In this document: positions 7,032 to 63,189 of the stretch, piece by piece | Layout: every line of letters begins with the position of its first letter | Numbering within the stretch: the first letter of the stretch is position 1 | Assembly: GCA_030159075.1 (NCBI GenBank) | Contig: BROG01000943.1 | Span: 144,011-208,010 of the forward strand | Reading direction: 5' to 3' | Origin: Atrina japonica | Taxonomy: Eukaryota; Mollusca; Bivalvia; Pterioida; Pinnidae | Length of the DNA stretch: 64,000 nt | Program-made: the position numbers and the translations under genes | The notes under the pieces: generated by a model | Told to the model about the DNA's origin: nothing | Databases searched by the model: none | The model's input: the letters and a program-made list of their open reading frames with translations, nothing else

Positions 7032-7143
7032 CTGGAAAGATATACAATAGTATAAAAATGACATTCTTTATGGATATAAAATTCATATATGACAAATTTG
7101 AAAATTGCTTCAGCAAAACAACAACAAAAACACACATTATGAG

Positions 7144-9301
<2,158 letters not shown>

Positions 9302-11304: not shown

Positions 11305-11420
11305 CTCATGTAGACATGTATACTGTACATGGTACGGGGCCACTTTTTCTTCTCCTTTGATCTCTACACTGATGTGAAGTCTAATGGCCCCTGACACAGC
11401 AGATTTGTCTGTTCTCTTTT
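11305..11420 (-). CDS. unc-13: unc-13 exon 11: end of C2B
   Basis: The 116-nt exon follows TTAAG, completes Glu, and reads [20 protein letters not shown], then [18 protein letters not shown], ending at GTAAGT in phase 0. [16 protein letters not shown] is the last strand of the UNC13 C2B domain, and [18 protein letters not shown] the conserved connection to MUN. The 3' splice site lacks a strong pyrimidine tract near the AG. It lies 6.65 kb downstream of exon 10b. Confidence 0.95.
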
Positions 11421-12861: not shown

Positions 12862-14500
12862 ACATTTACCCTAGGACCCATCTTATCCACAGACATATCT
12901 GTCCCAAGAAGCATGAACATCACAAGTATTGATGGACCCAACTTATTCACTGACCCCTGTATCCCAGGATGGACTTCGCAATGACCATAGGACCATTTTA
13001 TCTACAGAATCCTCTATCCCAGGCAGCACTGATGTCACAATGATCAGGGGACCTGTCTTATCTACAGAAACCTCTGTCCCAGGGAGCACCGACTTCATAA
13101 TGACAAAAGGTCTCATTTTATCTACAGACCCCTCTATCCCAGGAAGCATGGACTTCACATTGACCCGAGGACCCATCTTATCTAGAGAACCCATTGTCCG
13201 AGGAAGCACTTACTTCACAATGACCATAGGACTCACATTACATTCAGAACCCTCTACCCCAGCAAGCACAGACTTCACATTGACCTGAGGCCCCAGCTTA
13301 TCTACAGAAACCTCTATCTCAGCAAGCACAGACTTCACATTGACCTGAGGCCCCATCTACTGAAACCTCTACAGAAACCACATCTGAGGCCCCATCTCTA
13401 CAGCAAACCTCACACAGACTTCACATTGACCTGAGGCCCCATCTTATCTACAGAAACCTCTATCTCAGCAAGCATGGACTTCACATTGACCTGAGGCCCC
13501 ATCTTATCTACATCTATCTCAGCAAGCAAACCTCCTCACAGCAAGGCCCCATCTTATCTACACACCTCTACCTGTAAGCATGGACTTCACATTGACCTGA
13601 GGCCCCATCTTATCTACAGAAACCTCTATCTCAGCAAGCATGGACTTCACATTGACCTGAGGCCCATCTTATTATCTAAACCTCTATCTCAAAGCATGGC
13701 CTTCACATTGACTGAGGCCCCATCAAGCACAGAAACCTCTATCTCACATTGCCTTCCTGAGGCCCCATCTTATCTACAGAAACCTCTATCTCAGCAAGCA
13801 TGGCCTTCACATTGACCTGAGGCCCCATCTTATCTACAGAAACCTCTATCTCAGCAAGCATGGCCTTCACATTGACCTGAGGCCCCAGCTTATCTACAGA
13901 AACCTCTATCTCAGCAAGCATGGACTTCACATTGACCTGAGGCCCCATCTTATCTACAGAAACCTCTATCTCAGAAAGCACATTGACCAAGCCCCAAGAA
14001 TCTACAGAAACCTCTATCCCAGCAAGCATGGCCTTCACAATGACCTGAGGCCCCATCTTATCTACAGAAACCTCTATCCCAGCAAGCATAGGCCTTCACA
14101 TTGACCTGAGGCCCCATCTTATCTACAGAAACCTCTATCTCAGCAAGCATGGCCTTCACATTGACCTGAGGCCCCATCTTATCTACAGAAACCTCTATCT
14201 CAGCAAGCATGGCCTTCACATTGACCTTCTTATCTACAGAAACCTCTATCTCAGCAAGCATGGCCTTCACATTGACCTGAGGCCCCATCTTATCTACAGA
14301 AACCTCTATCTCAGCAAGCATGGCCTTCACATTGACCTGAGGCCCCATCTTATCTACAGAAACCTCTATCCCAGCAAGCATAGGCTTCACAATGACCAAA
14401 GGATCCATCTTATCTACTGACCCTTTTTCCCAGGGAGCACTGACTTCATAACGACAAACAGACCCATCTTATCTACAGAAACCTCTGCCCTAGGGATCAT
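12862..14500 (+). repeat. Minisatellite, 60-bp unit, about 26 copies
   Basis: The unit contains ACCTCTATCTCAGCAAGCAT, CACATTGACCTGAGGCCCC and ATCTTATCTACAGAA. The centre is nearly homogeneous and the outer copies (12862-13260, 14380-14500) are diverged, the usual pattern of array homogenisation. Units at 13340-13740 are scrambled by internal deletions. Sixty is a multiple of three, so the array is open in frames on both strands; I do not call a protein. Confidence 0.95.
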
Positions 14501-15095
14501 AAACGTTACAATTTTGATTACACTAACCCTCTAGATGTAACATATCACATTTGATGATAAATGTTTTTGAGAAGTTTTGTATTCAAATGTTCAAAAATAT
14601 TATAGACTATGCCCTTCTATAATTATAGAATGAAAAAGTGAAGGAAGAGAAAACTTAAAGCAAAATGAGTTGTCGAAGAGCAGATTTTATTCAATACTTT
14701 ATCTGGCATATATCTGAAAGATATCCCCTGGTGGTTAAAAACAAATACAAGCCGATAACTCAAATTGTTTTAAACAAAGAGTAAAGAGAAACGTGGATGG
14801 TTATATCTCTATAAAGAAAAGACAGAAATAAGACACTATTACTGCAGAGGGAAGATGCTAGAAAAACTGGTAAAAGACGAAAAAGAAACTAATTAAACTG
14901 GGAGTTTCAAAAGAGAAACTGTGGTCATATTTGGAAGATAGAAAAGAAACTAATGAAGTGAACTAAGAACTAAGAATAAAGACACTAGGTTATACTGGAG
15001 TAAAAGAATAGAGACACTAGGATTATATATGGAACATAGATAAAAACACTAGGTTTATACCTGAATATAACTTTAATGCACAAAATTTAATATTT
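14501..15095. other. Intronic spacer between two arrays
   Basis: AT-rich sequence with no recognised exon. From about 14990 it shades into the next array ('gacactaggattata'). Confidence 0.55.
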
Positions 15096-15099
15096 GAAC

Positions 15100-15680
15100 A
15101 ATAGAAAAGAGACACTATGATTATACATCAGGCAGATAGGCAAGAGACACTATCATTATATATCAGGCAGATAGACAAGATACACTAAGATTATATATCA
15201 GGCAGATAGACAAAAGACACTAGGATTATGTCAGGCAGATAGACCAGAGACATTAGAATTATATATCAAGCAGACAGAAAAGAGACACTGATTATATATC
15301 AGGCAAACTGGCAAGAGACACTAGGATTATATATCAAGCAGACAGAAAAGAGACACTAGTATTACATCAGGCATATAGGCAAGAGATACTAAGATTGTAT
15401 ATCAGGCAGATAGACAAGAGACACTAGGATTATATATCAAGCAGACAGAAAATAGACACTAGGATTATATTTGGCAGATAGGAAAGAGGCACGAGGTTTA
15501 TATATCAGACAGATAGACAAAGAGACACTAGGATTACATATCAGGCAGATAGACAAGAGATTATTTGATTATATATCCGGCAGATCGCCAAAAGACGCTA
15601 GGATTATATATCCTGCAGATAGGCAAAAGACACTAGGATTATATATCAGGCAGACAAGACAAGACACTAATATTATATCA
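15100..15680 (+). repeat. Minisatellite, about 35-bp unit (ATATATCAGGCAGATAGAC)
   Basis: About 16 diverged copies joining GACACTAGGATTATATATCA with GGCAGATAGACAAGA. The half 'gacactaggattata' is shared with the next array, so the two arrays share an origin. Confidence 0.93.
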
Positions 15681-15764
15681 GGAATATACAAAAGAGATAC
15701 TAGAAATAGAAAAAAGAACACATGTCATATTAAGAAGAAGGATAAGAGTCACTTTGATAACATT

Positions 15765-16930
15765 AGGTAGTCCAAGGATTATACTGGACAAATACAGATA
15801 ACACACTAGGATTATACTGGGAAGATACAAAGATGATACTAGGGTTGTAAAGGAAAGATACAACAAAGATACTAGGATTATATGGGAAGATGCAACTAAC
15901 ACACTAGGATTATATAGGGAAGATACAACAATGACAATAGGATTATATTGGGAAGATACAGTGATGACACTAGGATTATATTGAGAATATACAACAACAC
16001 TAGGATTGTATTGAGAACATACAAAAACACACTACGATTATAGATTATATTGGGAAGATACAAAAAACACACTAGTATTATAGATTATATTAGGAAGATC
16101 AATGATGACAATATGATTACATTGGGAAGATACAAAAAACACACTAGGATTATAGATTATATTGGGAAGATACAACAATAACATAAGGATTATATTGGGA
16201 AGATACAACAATAACATAAGGATTATATTGGGAAGATACAACAATAACATAAGGATTATATTGGGAAGATACAACAATAACATAAGGATTATATTGGGAA
16301 GATACAACAAAGACACTAGGATTATATTGGGAAGATACAACAAAGACACTAGGATTATATTGGGAAAATACAACAATGACACTAGGATTATATAGGGAAG
16401 ATACAACAAAGACACTAGGATTATATAGGGAAGATACAACAAAGACACTAGGATTATATTGGGAAGATACAACAAAGACACTAGGATTATATAGGGAAGA
16501 TATAACAAAGACACTAGGATTATATAGGGAAAATACAACAAAGACACTAGGATTATATAGGGAAGATACAACAATGACACTAGGATTATATAGGGAAAAT
16601 ACAACAAAGACACTAGGATTATATAGGGAAGATACAACAATGACACTAGGATTATATAGGGAAAATACAACAAAGACACTAGGATTATAAAGGGAAGATA
16701 CAACAAAGACACTAGGATTATATAGGGAAGATACAACAAAGACACTAGGATTATATAGGGAAGATACAACAATGACACTAGGATTATATAGGGAAAATAC
16801 AACAAAGACACTAGGATTATAAAGTGAAGATACAACAAAGACACTAGGATTATAAAGGGAAGATACAACAAAGACACTAGGATTATATAGGGAAGATACA
16901 ACAATGACACTATGATTACACAACACAATA
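15765..16930 (+). repeat. Minisatellite, 33-bp unit (GGGAAGATACAACAAAG)
   Basis: About 35 copies of GACACTAGGATTATATAGGG + AAGATACAACAAA. The unit length is a multiple of three, so long apparent reading frames occur on both strands (for example 16038-16946 on the minus strand). They are low-complexity repeats and I do not call them genes. Confidence 0.95.
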
Positions 16931-16957
16931 GTATACTTTCACACACAAATGAATTTT

Positions 16958-16960
<3 letters not shown>

Positions 16961-17047
<87 letters not shown>
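16961..17047 (+). repeat. (GA)n microsatellite
   Basis: Uninterrupted GA dinucleotides for about 87 bases, immediately after the 33-bp array. Confidence 0.98.
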
Positions 17048-18073: not shown

Positions 18074-18201
18074 CTAAATTATACCATACGTCCATATCGC
18101 CACTCAATGTGGTGACATCTATAACAGTTTGACCCAAAAAATCGTCCGATTCTCGAGTGAATTTTTGTCTCAACTTAGAGGGAATATCATCATCTTCATC
18201 C
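18074..18201 (-). CDS. unc-13: unc-13 exon 10b: alternative C2B loop-3 exon (downstream copy)
   Basis: The 128-nt exon lies between CTTACAG and GTCAGT. It reads [42 protein letters not shown]. It differs from exon 10a at 9 of 42 residues, mostly in the loop-3 insert (LKSKLMQKL versus IPSKLRQKF) and conservatively after it. The acidic ligands and [10 protein letters not shown] are identical. Phase is the same at both ends, and 256 nt together is not a multiple of three, so inclusion of both would break the frame. Confidence 0.93.
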
Positions 18202-18832
18202 CTGTAAGACACGAGGAAAGCAAACACAACATTTAGGAATTTGAAAAATTAGGAATACACAGGCATTAGTAGAAAAGGTGAGATGAAATATTTTGGTTGC
18301 AACTCCAACTACTTGCTTAAAAAAAAAACATGAAATATTTTGTGCCGACATGAGACTTAGCAGCAATGCTTTGCTTCAGAGGCTGGTCAATTACGATTGC
18401 ATTTCAAATGAAGAAGGCGATGAAAATAGTTTTGTAAGCAACCAATATATTACACCACCAGCCCGTCTCGCAGGCTAAGTGAAGCTATCACAAGTCCAAT
18501 AAAAATATGTGATGGAGTCTGCACACATGCAAAGTGATAGCGTGTAATGTGCAGTTTCAAAGAAAACTGCAGAAATGTCTCCATGACGACAGTTTATACC
18601 GTGTAAACATCTGTCCTCAAAAAACATAACATATATAATGCAATATGAGATGTTCTGTATAACAGACGATATTTCATGTTAATTGTCTTGATGAAAAATC
18701 ATACATGGTAAAAATAAAATGAAATGTAATTCAAGAAAATGATATATGTTTACAATTTTTTGAGGACAGACAATTGCAGTACCACACTAAGTAATTTCTG
18801 AAGAGTTCTACTGGGTTGTCATGGCAACTTAC

Positions 18833-18960
18833 CCAAATTATACCAAACATCCATTTCACCACTGAGGGTACGGACCTCAATGATTGTCTGGCCCAGAAAA
18901 TCATCTGACTCTCTTGTCAGTTTCTGCATTAGTTTGGATTTCAAATCATTGTCTTCATCC
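18833..18960 (-). CDS. unc-13: unc-13 exon 10a: alternative C2B loop-3 exon (upstream copy)
   Basis: The 128-nt exon lies between TTGTAG and GTAAGT. It completes Trp, reads [42 protein letters not shown] and leaves one base. It encodes calcium loop 3 (acidic cluster DEDND, later ESDD) and the unusual helix-like insert that Munc13 C2B has in this loop, then the following strand. A copy of equal length and phase lies at 18074-18201. Aspartates expected to bind calcium are kept. Confidence 0.95.
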
Positions 18961-20501: not shown

Positions 20502-20543
20502 CAAACTCTGACTTTGATTCTGTCGGAGGAGTTATGACACTCA
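20502..20543 (-). CDS. unc-13: unc-13 exon 9: 42-nt C2B micro-scale exon
   Basis: This very short exon lies between TTTACAG and GTGAGT. It completes Phe, then reads ECHNSSDRIKVRV and leaves TG of the Trp codon. The peptide is the conserved C2B strand leading into calcium loop 3. Phase fits both the exon before and either copy of the alternative exon after it. At 42 nt it is easily missed by gene finders. Confidence 0.95.
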
Positions 20544-21666: not shown

Positions 21667-21808
21667 AAATAAAATTTTTCATTCCAATCAGGATTCAAGT
21701 TTTGTGGGACTGTTTTAGTCCGTTTTTTGACTTTGCCAACTTGGACCGTTACATAAGGATCACTTGTACCTGTTTTATCCTTCCCAATCAGACCTTGGGC
21801 ACATATCA
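21667..21808 (-). CDS. unc-13: unc-13 exon 8: C2B domain, calcium loop 1
   Basis: The 142-nt exon lies between TTTTTCAG and GTAAGT. It begins by completing Val and reads [19 protein letters not shown], then [16 protein letters not shown], then [11 protein letters not shown]. It carries the first calcium-binding loop of C2B with aspartates at about residues 369 and 375 (KDKTG and SDPYV) and the polybasic KVKKRTK strand typical of phosphoinositide-binding C2 domains. It ends with TT, completed by T of the next exon to give Phe. Confidence 0.97.
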
Positions 21809-26239: not shown

Positions 26240-27850
26240 CTAATCCGCTATTTTTGTATATCTACTGTGGGTATAATAGTTGTGTATATCTACTCTGGGT
26301 TTACTAATTATATATCTACTGTGGGTATACAAATTATATATCTACTCTGGGTATAATAGTTGTGTATAACTACTGTGGGTATACTAATTATATATCTACT
26401 GTGGGTATACTAATTATATATCCACTGTGGGTATACTAATTTATATCTACTGTGGGTATACTAATTATATATCTACTGTGGGTATACTAATTATATATCC
26501 ACTGTGGGTATATTAATTATATATCCACTGTGGGTATACTAATTATATATCTACTGTGGGTATACTAATTATATATCCACTGTGGATATACTAATTATAT
26601 ATCTACTGTGGGTATACTAATTATATATCTACTGTGGGTATACTAATTATATATCCACTGTGGGTGTACTAATTATATATCTACTGTGGGTATACTAATT
26701 ATATATCTACTGTGGGTATACTAATTACATATCTACTGTGGGTATACTAATTATATATCTACTGTGGGTGTACTAATTATATATCTACTGTGGGTATACT
26801 AATTATATATCTACTGTGGGTATACTAATTATATATCCACTGTGGGTATATTAATTATATATCCACTGTGGGTATACTAATTATATATCTACTGTGGGTA
26901 TACTAATTATATATCCACTGTGGATATACTAATTATATATCTACTGTGGGTATACTAATTATATATCTACTGTGGGTATACTAATTATATATCCACTGTG
27001 GGTGTACTAATTATATATCTACTGTGGGTATACTAATTATATATCTACTGTGGGTATACTAATTACATATCTACTGTGGGTATACTAATTATATATCTAC
27101 TGTGGGTGTACTAATTATATATCTACTGTGGGTATACTAATTATATATCTACTGTGGGTATACTAATTACATATCTACTGTGGGTATACTAATTATATAT
27201 CCACTGTGGGTATACTAATTAGATATCCACTGTGGGTATGATAGTAGTGTATAACTATTGTGGGTATACTAATTATAAATCTACTTTGGGTATGATAGTA
27301 GTGTATAACTATTGTGGGTATACTAATCATATATCTACTGTATGTATACTGATTATATATCCACTGTGGGTATACTAATTATATATCTTATGTGGGTATA
27401 CTAATTATATATCTACTGTGGGTATACTAATTATATATCCACTGTGGGTATACTAATTATATATCCACTGTGGGCATACTAATTATATATCCACTGTGGG
27501 TATATTAATTATATATCTACTGTGGGTAAACTAATAATATATCCACTGTGGGTATACTAATTATATATCCACTGTGGGTATAATAGTTGTGTATAACTAC
27601 TCTGGGTATACTAATTATATATCTACTGTGGGTAGACTAATCATATATCTTCTGTGGGTATAATAATTATATATCTAGTATGGATATATTAACTATGTAT
27701 ATCTACTGTGGCTAGACTTAATTATGTATCTACAATGGCTATACTGATTATATATCTACTGTGGCTAGACTAATTATGTATATTTATTGTGGCTAGACTA
27801 ATCATATCTATCATGGCTATACTAATTATGTATATCTACTGTGCTGCTGT
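26240..27850 (+). repeat. Minisatellite, 26-bp unit, about 60 copies
   Basis: The unit is TACTAATTATATATCTACTG + TGGGTA. Variant positions repeat at 338 bp (13 units): GTGGATATAC at 26582 and 26920, ACATATCTACTG at about 26727 and 27065. The right end (27640-27850) decays into 'gtggctagacta' variants. Confidence 0.96.
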
Positions 27851-28419: not shown

Positions 28420-28526
28420 CTTTCAGACTGATATTAGCGGACCATTTAGAGGTCCCATCTAACACAATTTGTTTGGCACTTTGCTTGTAACCTGCATGTA
28501 ATGCAGGACCTATAGTAAACACATGT
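28420..28526 (-). CDS. unc-13: unc-13 exon 7b: alternative linker/C2B start (diverged copy)
   Basis: The 107-nt exon lies between TTTTCAG and GTATAA, in the same phase as exon 7a. It reads HVFTIGPALHAGYKQSA, then [18 protein letters not shown]. By eye 17 of 35 residues equal exon 7a; the block [10 protein letters not shown] is preserved while the first half is freely changed, losing most basic residues. Intact frame, good splice sites and retained core argue for a functional alternative exon rather than a decayed copy. Confidence 0.88.
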
Positions 28527-29131: not shown

Positions 29132-29238
29132 CAGTTATAGCTATTTTAGCAGACCATTTAGATGTTCCGTCCAATACGCTTTGTTTTACAGCTTTCATAT
29201 GGCCAGTATGAGACTTTTTATCCACACCGAAAACTTGC
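29132..29238 (-). CDS. unc-13: unc-13 exon 7a: alternative linker/C2B start (canonical-like copy)
   Basis: The 107-nt exon lies between ATCAG and GTAAGA. It completes Arg, then reads [17 protein letters not shown], then [18 protein letters not shown], and leaves one base of the next codon. It is close to the usual Munc13 sequence, where [15 protein letters not shown] leads into the first C2B strand. A second exon of equal length and phase lies about 0.6 kb downstream (28420-28526). Using both would add 107 nt and shift the frame, so they should be mutually exclusive. Confidence 0.93.
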
Positions 29239-30830: not shown

Positions 30831-30832
30831 GC
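30831..30832 (-). other. GC 5' splice site (GC-AG intron)
   Basis: The exon end reads ATCAG|GCAAGT, the consensus for GC-type donors (AG|GCAAGT). The frame of both downstream alternative exons requires the junction here. Confidence 0.9.
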
Positions 30833-30953
30833 CTGATTAATTCAAATATTTCTGGTTTGTTGCGCTCCCTAATTTTCATTCTGTCTCTCATTGCCATAAT
30901 AATGTTCTGAGTTTTATCTTCAGCGCCATGCTTTGAGCTTTTCTCTGCGGCAC
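30833..30953 (-). CDS. unc-13: unc-13 exon 6: C1-C2B linker, GC donor
   Basis: The 121-nt exon follows TTAACAG and completes Arg, then reads [18 protein letters not shown], then [18 protein letters not shown] and ELI. This linker is highly conserved in UNC13 proteins and includes a basic amphipathic stretch; in Munc13 the calmodulin site lies further upstream. The exon ends ATCAG|GCAAGT, so the 5' splice site is GC rather than GT. No GT in register keeps frame with either of the two following alternative exons, so the GC donor is required. Confidence 0.93.
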
Positions 30954-32324: not shown

Positions 32325-32544
32325 GTTGAAGACAATCTGCATTGAGCAAGTCCTTGCATTTTTCATGACACTTAACACCACACTCTGTACATCTTACGCC
32401 TTGTCGTACCATACCCCACAGGAGCCCCTCACATTCAAAACAATATGTTGGTGACGTTGCCGTCCAAACAACAAAATTGTGAGGAGTTGTGCTAGATATC
32501 GGGTAGATTAAAGCTTGCAGCGTCTTTTTGTATACATGCATTTT
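32325..32544 (-). CDS. unc-13: unc-13 exon 5: C1 (phorbol ester/DAG-binding) domain
   Basis: The 220-nt exon encodes a complete typical C1 zinc finger. Numbering residues of the short isoform, the metal ligands run His231, Cys244, Cys247, Cys261, Cys264, His269, Cys272, Cys280. This fits the H-X12-C-X2-C-Xn-C-X2-C-X4-H-X2-C-X7-C pattern exactly. The upstream stretch [16 protein letters not shown] and the core [13 protein letters not shown] are hallmarks of UNC13 C1. Typical C1 domains bind two zinc ions and bring the protein to membranes on diacylglycerol. The exon ends one base into the Arg codon at a GTAAGA donor. That donor is the edge of a tandem array built from the same sequence (31842-32330). 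Confidence 0.97.
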
Positions 32545-60199: not shown

Positions 60200-61560
60200 G
60201 CCAGGTACATTGTAACTGTAGATATTTATTTTGCCAGGTACAATGTAACTTGGTATTTTGCCAGGTATATTGTAACTTTTTTTTTTTTGGGGGGGGGGGG
60301 CAGGAATTCATAACATAGGTTTTTTGCCATGTGCCATACAGTTTACCTATTTATTTTGTAAGGTATATTGTTACTTAACCTTTTGCCAGATACAATTAAA
60401 CTTGCTGTTTTGTCATGAACACTGTAAATTAGTTTTGTTCCAGGTATATTATAACTGGGTCTTTTGTCAGGTATATTGTAACTGGGTCTTTTGTCAGGTA
60501 TATTGTAACTGGGTCTTTTGTCAGGTATATTGTAACTGGGTCTTTTGTCAAGTATATGTAACTGGTCTTTTGTAAGGTATTGTAACTGGGTTTTCTGTCA
60601 GGTACTGGGTCTTCTGTCAGGTATATTGTAACTGGGTTTTCTGTCAGGTATATTGTAACTGGGTCTTCTGTCAGGTATATTGTAACTGGGTCTTCTGTCA
60701 GGTATATTGTAACTGGGTCTTCTGTCAGGTATATTGTAACTGGGTCTTTTGTAAGGTATATTGTAACTGGGTCTTCTGTCAGGTATATTGTAACTGGGTC
60801 TTTTGTCAGGTATATTGTAACTGGGTCTTTTGTCAGGTATATTGTAACTGGGTCTTTTGTCAAGTATATTGTAACTGAGTCTTTTGTAAGGTATATTGTA
60901 ACTGGGTCTTCTGTCAGGTATATTGTAACTGGGTCTTCTGTCAGGTATATTGTAACTGGGTCTTTTGTAAGGTATATTGTAACTGGGTCTTCTGTCAGGT
61001 ATATTGTAACTGGGTCTTCTGTCAGGTATATTGTAACTAGGTCTCTTGTCAGGTATATTGTATCTTAGCCTTTTGTCAGGTACATGTACATGTATATTGT
61101 AACTTGTCAGGTATATTGTAACTTAGCCTTTTGTCAGGTACATGTATATTGTAACTTTTCAGGTATATTGTAACTTAGCTTCTTGTCGGGTATATTGTAA
61201 CTTAGCCTCTTGTCAGGTATATTGTAACTTAGCCTCTTGTCAGGTATATTGTAACTTAGCCTCTTGTCAGGTATATTGTAACTTCGCCTCTTGTCAGGTA
61301 AATTATTACTTACTTGTCAGGTTATTTAACTTAGCCTCTTGTCAGGTATATTGTAACTTAGCCTCTTGTCAGGTAAATTATTACTTAGCCTCTTGTCAGG
61401 TTTATTGTAACTTAGCCTCTTGTCAGGTATATTGTAACTTAGCCTCTTGTCAGGTATATTGTAACTTAGCCTCTTGTCAGGTATATTGTAACTTAGCATC
61501 TTGTCAGGTAAATTATTACTTAGCCTCTTGTCAGGTTTATTGTAACTTGCCTCTTGTCTT
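60200..61560 (+). repeat. Minisatellite, 27-bp unit, about 48 copies in two subfamilies
   Basis: Left block: CTGGGTCTTCTGTCAGGTAT + ATTGTAA (about 60450-61040). Right block: CTTAGCCTCTTGTCAGGTAT + ATTGTAA (about 61055-61560). The border between the two forms is sharp. Both strands have spurious long frames because 27 is a multiple of three. Confidence 0.95.

Positions 61561-63189
<1,629 letters not shown>

Follow-up and report, generated by a model that had tools for sequence, protein, structure and literature searches.

In the unc-13 gene of Atrina japonica, two tandem pairs of homologous exons, A/B and A2/B2, very probably form two mutually exclusive switches, which may tune membrane binding by the C1-C2B module of the predicted protein. 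The A/B pair would offer a choice between two forms of the part of C2B that runs from calcium-binding loop 3 onward, and the A2/B2 pair would swap the C1-C2B linker together with the first C2B strand, so that up to four C1-C2B modules could be made from one gene. Both pairs lie in the window, by which we mean the whole stretch of 64,000 nucleotides that was analysed (Table 1).

Table 1. Exons and introns of unc-13 around the two exon pairs, in window positions, with exon-intron borders marked by a slash.
Feature	Position	Strand	Description	Borders
C1 domain exon	32325..32544	minus	Placed by Pfam and rat probe	
Exon preceding the second pair	30833..30953	minus		GC donor, CAG/GCAAGT
Exon copy A2	29132..29238	minus	107 nt; C1-C2B linker and C2B start; rat 660-694	
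Exon copy B2	28420..28526	minus	107 nt; homologous to A2	
C2B exon following the second pair	21667..21808	minus		
C2B exon upstream of A/B	20502..20543	minus	ECHNSSDRIKVRV; ends two bases into a W codon	
Exon copy A	18833..18960	minus	128 nt; C2B from loop 3 onward; aligned to rat Munc13-1 757-798	18960-18833: acceptor TGATTGTAG/GGATGAAG ... donor AATTTGG/GTAAGT
Intron between A and B	18202..18832	minus	631 nt	
Exon copy B	18074..18201	minus	128 nt; homologous to A	18201-18074: acceptor GTCTTACAG/GGATGAAG ... donor AATTTAG/GTCAGT
Exon downstream of A/B	11305..11420	minus		

A tandem exon pair in the C2B domain

An earlier note on this DNA had proposed that two exons of 128 nt and equal phase encode the same piece of the UNC-13 C2B domain. 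We found both copies exactly at the positions proposed, with the same length and phase and with canonical splice sites. Each begins with GGATGAAGA and is followed by a GT donor, and either copy joins position 20502 to position 11420 in frame, leaving the reading frame open each way. The two exons are identical at 88 of 128 nucleotides and encode 33 identical residues out of 42, which is the number that had been counted by eye. Inclusion of both copies breaks the frame, as had been predicted, with an early stop ten complete codons into B; when neither copy is included, a stop arises at the junction. The proposal of a mutually exclusive pair thus held with respect to homology, length, phase, splice sites, frame and purifying selection, and exclusivity itself, here and in the second pair, is what we infer from the frame together with the asymmetry of the splice sites. 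On these sequence features, the tandem A/B copies are best read as a candidate mutually exclusive exon pair in the C2B domain of UNC-13.

The gene around the exon pairs

Exons were placed with a probe sequence that we take to represent rat Munc13-1. From the C1 domain (32544) onward, the matching exons run down the minus strand. Once the window had been extended by four stretches of 10 kb from its contig, they could be followed across MUN and C2C as far as position -24380 in window numbering, almost to the C-terminal end of the probe. Plus-strand rows and rows of 38% identity or less were dropped, and a few short stretches of the probe stayed unmatched; no frame break was seen in the matched exons. 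A Pfam scan of the window exons placed C1 and C2 domains in order, above the cut-offs (PF00130 and PF00168), with similar C2 scores for the domain containing A (88 bits) or B (87.4 bits). The best matches among solved structures were all to Munc13-1 (5UE8, 7T7C and 6NYC; best E 2e-109). The predicted order of C1, C2B, MUN and C2C is that of UNC13/Munc13, to which we assign the gene. Because the contig, of 208,010 nt, ends at the right edge of the window, the N-terminal end of unc-13 may be missing.

A second exon pair in the C1-C2B linker

The rat Munc13-1 probe also exposed a duplicate that is absent from the earlier note. Its copies, A2 and B2, encode the C1-C2B linker and the first C2B strand and are separated by an intron of 605 nt. 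They are identical to each other at 17 of 35 residues, and to rat Munc13-1 at 27 of 35 (A2) and 17 of 35 (B2). The frame is broken when A2 and B2 are both included and also when both are skipped. All four combinations of A2 or B2 with A or B are open, giving a frame of 472 residues over 13 joined exons. Of the 15 exons scored, only the one preceding this pair lacks a GT donor and has GC instead (30832-30833, minus strand).

Selection on the exon copies

A and B differ at 40 of 126 coding bases, 27 of which are third positions; by the Nei-Gojobori method, dN is 0.15 and synonymous sites are saturated. We compared this pattern with a neutral simulation in which 40 random substitutions were placed in A. 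Over 20,000 trials, a mean of 17.1 of the 42 residues were kept and a stop appeared in 76%, and not one trial reached 33 residues without a stop. The third-position bias, the dN value and the neutral trials together support that A and B have both long been kept as protein-coding sequence. For A2 and B2, dN is 0.40 and synonymous sites are again saturated; 2 of 20,000 neutral trials equalled the conservation of this pair without a stop.

These results bear on whether B, or B2, could be a relic exon that is no longer spliced in, with A alone being used. The far greater divergence of B2 than of A2 from the rat sequence would fit such a relic, but B2 too is conserved beyond neutrality, as its two matching trials indicate. 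B, for its part, has kept its frame, both of its splice sites and 32 of the 42 rat residues, with changes that fall mostly at third positions and that none of the neutral trials reproduced. We therefore consider a relic unlikely, and favor the reading that both members of each pair are in use.

Splice-site asymmetry and possible mechanisms of exclusion

Each of the four alternative exons has an AG acceptor and a GT donor, with signals of unequal strength. Among 15 acceptors, pyrimidine content between -20 and -5 was lowest for A (0.31), and that of B (0.81) tied for the highest, and the U1 pairing of the donors was -9.8 for A and -5.9 for B. The second pair shows a similar tendency, with pyrimidine contents of 0.56 (A2) and 0.75 (B2) and U1 pairing of -8.0 and -5.7, respectively. 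Since the donors of A and B both match the consensus at 7 of 9 positions, their asymmetry lies solely in these U1 energies. We propose that the unequal sites would compete, A presenting a purine-rich acceptor with a strong-U1 donor and B a pyrimidine-rich acceptor with a weaker-U1 donor. Passages of a study of duplicated exons describe unequal polypyrimidine tracts in those that are regulated, and treat differences in branch point and polypyrimidine tract as a shared means of control; in U2AF1, the main example in these passages, the exon with the less favorable signals is the one used more (PMC5224494). By this precedent, splice-site strength does not reveal which copy is the default.

The same features could serve regulated poison splicing, in which occasional joint inclusion or joint skipping would chiefly set the level of UNC-13 via nonsense-mediated decay, rather than producing two proteins. 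Transcripts with both copies or neither would run into an early stop, and the purine-rich acceptor of A could often be skipped. However, a pure poison exon need not keep a C2B frame in which 32 of 42 residues are those of the rat, and we regard this explanation as quite improbable. If the copies are instead mutually exclusive, as we favor, transcripts with both or neither would be frameshifted and removed by decay.

Several mechanisms that could enforce exclusion were considered. Steric exclusion, for which a human survey, in the passages available, counted cases with less than 50 bp between donor and branch point (PMC5740500), is ruled out by the inter-exon introns of 631 and 605 nt. According to the same passages, 377 human clusters (60%) have lengths that are not divisible by three (PMC5740500). 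Docking and selector pairing was sought for the first pair in the introns upstream of A and between A and B and in the initial 1 kb of the intron downstream of B, which is 6.65 kb long, and none was apparent there: the best duplexes reached -32.6, -32.6 and -30.6, against means of -32.3, -32.4 and -32.6 for 12 approximate dinucleotide shuffles each. The inter-exon introns folded with z values of -3.56 (first pair) and -3.57 (second pair), and with -1.61 and -3.61 when a second script was used with 14 shuffles. Such folding is not exceptional for the window, since 6 of 32 control segments were as extreme (z of -3.6 or lower); the controls were a random draw from the window from which known tandem arrays were excluded only within 5000-33000.

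The Rbfox-type motif TGCATG is found once in each inter-exon intron, at 18531 and 28760. There are 26 sense-strand sites in the 64 kb, which corresponds to about 0.25 expected per intron and to a chance of about 5% that both would carry one, and we take the motif as a lead only. Rfam, searched with E values as high as 1 admitted, gave no match within 18074-18960. The intron between A and B also contains a 28-nt inverted repeat (79%; 18610-18637 and 18743-18770), which could represent a small mobile element or have arisen by chance.

Copies in the gene and in the assembly

We scanned the 104-kb stretch for duplicates with 26 exon peptides, each used singly and all from exons at or downstream of 33526. 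Old duplicates were found solely at A/B and A2/B2, and the other matches, with E of 0.057 or worse, were put down to chance. A search of the whole assembly (832,074,514 bases in 2347 contigs) with the A peptide returned two candidates, both of which were scored and which proved to be A and B, the latter with E = 5.4e-16; there was no third match in this single search of 832 Mb. Since nothing but A and B matched in this search, their likeness is not due to chance.

The intron flanks of A and B are 35% identical upstream and 33% identical downstream (60 nt, ungapped comparison), and such unrelated flanks argue against a duplication that is recent or that arose falsely in assembly. An assembly artefact or paralogue collapse, with two alleles or genes set in tandem, is conceivable in an assembly split into 2347 contigs but extremely improbable, given the unrelated introns around A and B, their saturated synonymous sites and the lack of any second strong match of the flanking exons in the 104 kb scanned or of a further match to the A peptide in the assembly. 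Collections of viral and prokaryote contigs gave 11 and 115 pattern matches, none of which was related, as expected.

Residue differences between A and B

Residues are given in rat Munc13-1 numbering, taken from the 5UE8 alignment and consistent at K706, K720, R750, K752 and R769. A is identical to rat Munc13-1 at 34 of 42 residues and B at 32 of 42. The two copies differ from each other at positions 760, 762, 763, 767, 770, 782, 784, 786 and 791. The changes had been described in the earlier note as concentrated in loop 3, a tendency that proved weak: 5 of the 20 residues in rat 757-776, limits that we chose, differ between the copies, as opposed to 4 of the 22 in the rest of the exon. That all acidic residues are kept was accurate in the sense that each acidic position of A is also acidic in B, but two of these are swaps from E to D, and B has an extra D760. 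The D757 and D759 positions, which we take to be calcium ligands of C2B, are identical in A, B and rat, and position 769 (rat R769) is K in both copies. Five conserved aspartates are attributed to C2B in passages of a study of UNC-13 (PMC11991699).

B shares the rat residue at 760, 762 and 770, A shares it at 763, 782, 784, 786 and 791, and neither does so at 767, which makes each copy a different mosaic with respect to rat. The charge of the whole exon is -5 for A, -7 for B and -4 for rat, that of residues 762-772 is +4, +4 and +6, and the hydrophobic moments are 0.52, 0.54 and 0.55, respectively. B is less basic overall, yet has a rat-like phenylalanine at 770. With moments and 762-772 charges this close between the copies, membrane binding need not differ greatly.

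Proposed function of the exon pairs

In simulations described in passages of a study of Munc13-1, the amphipathic helix of a C2B calcium-binding loop touches the membrane whether or not calcium is present, and the calcium-free pose also brings the sides of C1 and C2B, along with the linker, into contact with it; the authors caution that the simulations are biased by their starting poses (PMC8648301). These simulated contacts of helix and linker suggest that both exon pairs would swap parts of one membrane-facing surface. The same passages report that R769E and K603E severely impair priming, and that release probability is lowered by K706E and raised by K720E (PMC8648301). Mutual inhibition of C1 and C2B depends on the linkers, according to the passages of another study (PMC11991699). 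A functional role of the A/B swap in priming or plasticity is plausible, because D757, D759 and the position of R769 all lie within the exon, R769 being the residue whose replacement by E is so damaging to priming in those passages (PMC8648301).

We propose, with less certainty, that all isoforms would retain calcium coordination, priming competence and the loop-3 amphipathic helix, and that at the membrane face they may differ in charge and in their hydrophobic side chains. The isoforms would then bind lipids with different affinities and favor the membrane poses to different degrees, and shifts in phosphoinositide- and calcium-dependent binding could make priming, release probability or short-term plasticity vary by cell type. 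Vertebrates have several separate Munc13 genes. As a tentative and rather doubtful extension, the two pairs might constitute a 2 x 2 splice code at the membrane-touching surface of Munc13, cell-type-specific and perhaps coordinated, that spans in one gene the range of priming and short-term plasticity which vertebrates spread over several.

UNC-13/Munc13 sets the number of fusion-ready vesicles, and calcium, diacylglycerol and PIP2 influence release through its C1-C2B module. With two natural forms each of the loop-3 helix and the linker, the pairs would supply evolution-tested mutants of a surface that has been proposed to switch Munc13 between orientations. Comparison of A with B and of A2 with B2 would show which residues tune priming versus release probability, and also whether animals with a single unc-13 gene diversify their synapses through splicing. 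If our reading is right, one gene would make several kinds of release machinery.

Relation to known systems

Among the literature matches listed, none describes an exon pair at the place of A/B or A2/B2 in unc-13, UNC13 or Munc13; both exons may already figure in gene models that other databases have generated automatically. The pairs would join a known class, that of mutually exclusive exons in C2 domains. Such exons arose several times in invertebrates, in Syt1, Syt34 and Esyt2, as described in passages of one study (PMC2823689). There, as proposed here, homologous alternative exons change a portion of a C2 domain in proteins of invertebrate exocytosis, but the gene families are others and the collection, by the title of the study, is without UNC-13 (PMC2823689). 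Unlike in those genes, unc-13 has a further pair next to its C2 domain that would alter the linker too, which adds interest to the case.

Drosophila Cav2 (cacophony) offers another parallel: this one presynaptic gene of an invertebrate has two mutually exclusive exon pairs that lack conservation in vertebrates, and its isoforms set release probability and plasticity, according to the passages available of that work (PMC11828482). Cav2 is an ion channel whose roles were established by experiment, whereas the unc-13 pairs are known from sequence (PMC11828482). Mammalian Munc13-1 C1-C2B (5UE8, 7T7C; PMC8648301, PMC5344669) has the same domain order, and in our alignment A and B both keep its D757 and D759 and have a basic residue at position 769; no exon pair at this place was described for it among the literature matches listed.

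Alternative isoforms of UNC-13 are familiar from other invertebrates. In C. elegans, it is the N-terminal part that distinguishes UNC-13L from UNC-13S/MR, whereas A/B lies inside C2B. These C. elegans proteins resemble the isoforms proposed here in coming from one unc-13 gene and in differing in release, as stated in passages of one study (PMC11991699). Drosophila unc-13 is among the genes that are alternatively spliced in a neuron-specific manner in circadian neurons, in a report whose passages do not name the exons concerned (PMC6025963).

Repeats and young duplications at the locus

The introns of the gene are rich in minisatellites (12873-17047, 7143-9078 and 26257-27843), with units of 60, 33, 25 and 26 nt repeated as many as about 75 times, and they also contain a (GA)43 run. 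Such repeats make up much of the 6.65-kb intron that follows exon B. Open frames of tandem PDKRPSYNI-like units on the minus strand at about 60200-61600 are probably minisatellite as well, and not protein. Between window positions -7213 and -6752, on the minus strand, a MUN exon precedes three almost identical copies of its 3' part, 112 nt apart, each carrying a GTAAGT donor, a pattern that represents a young expansion of an exon fragment.
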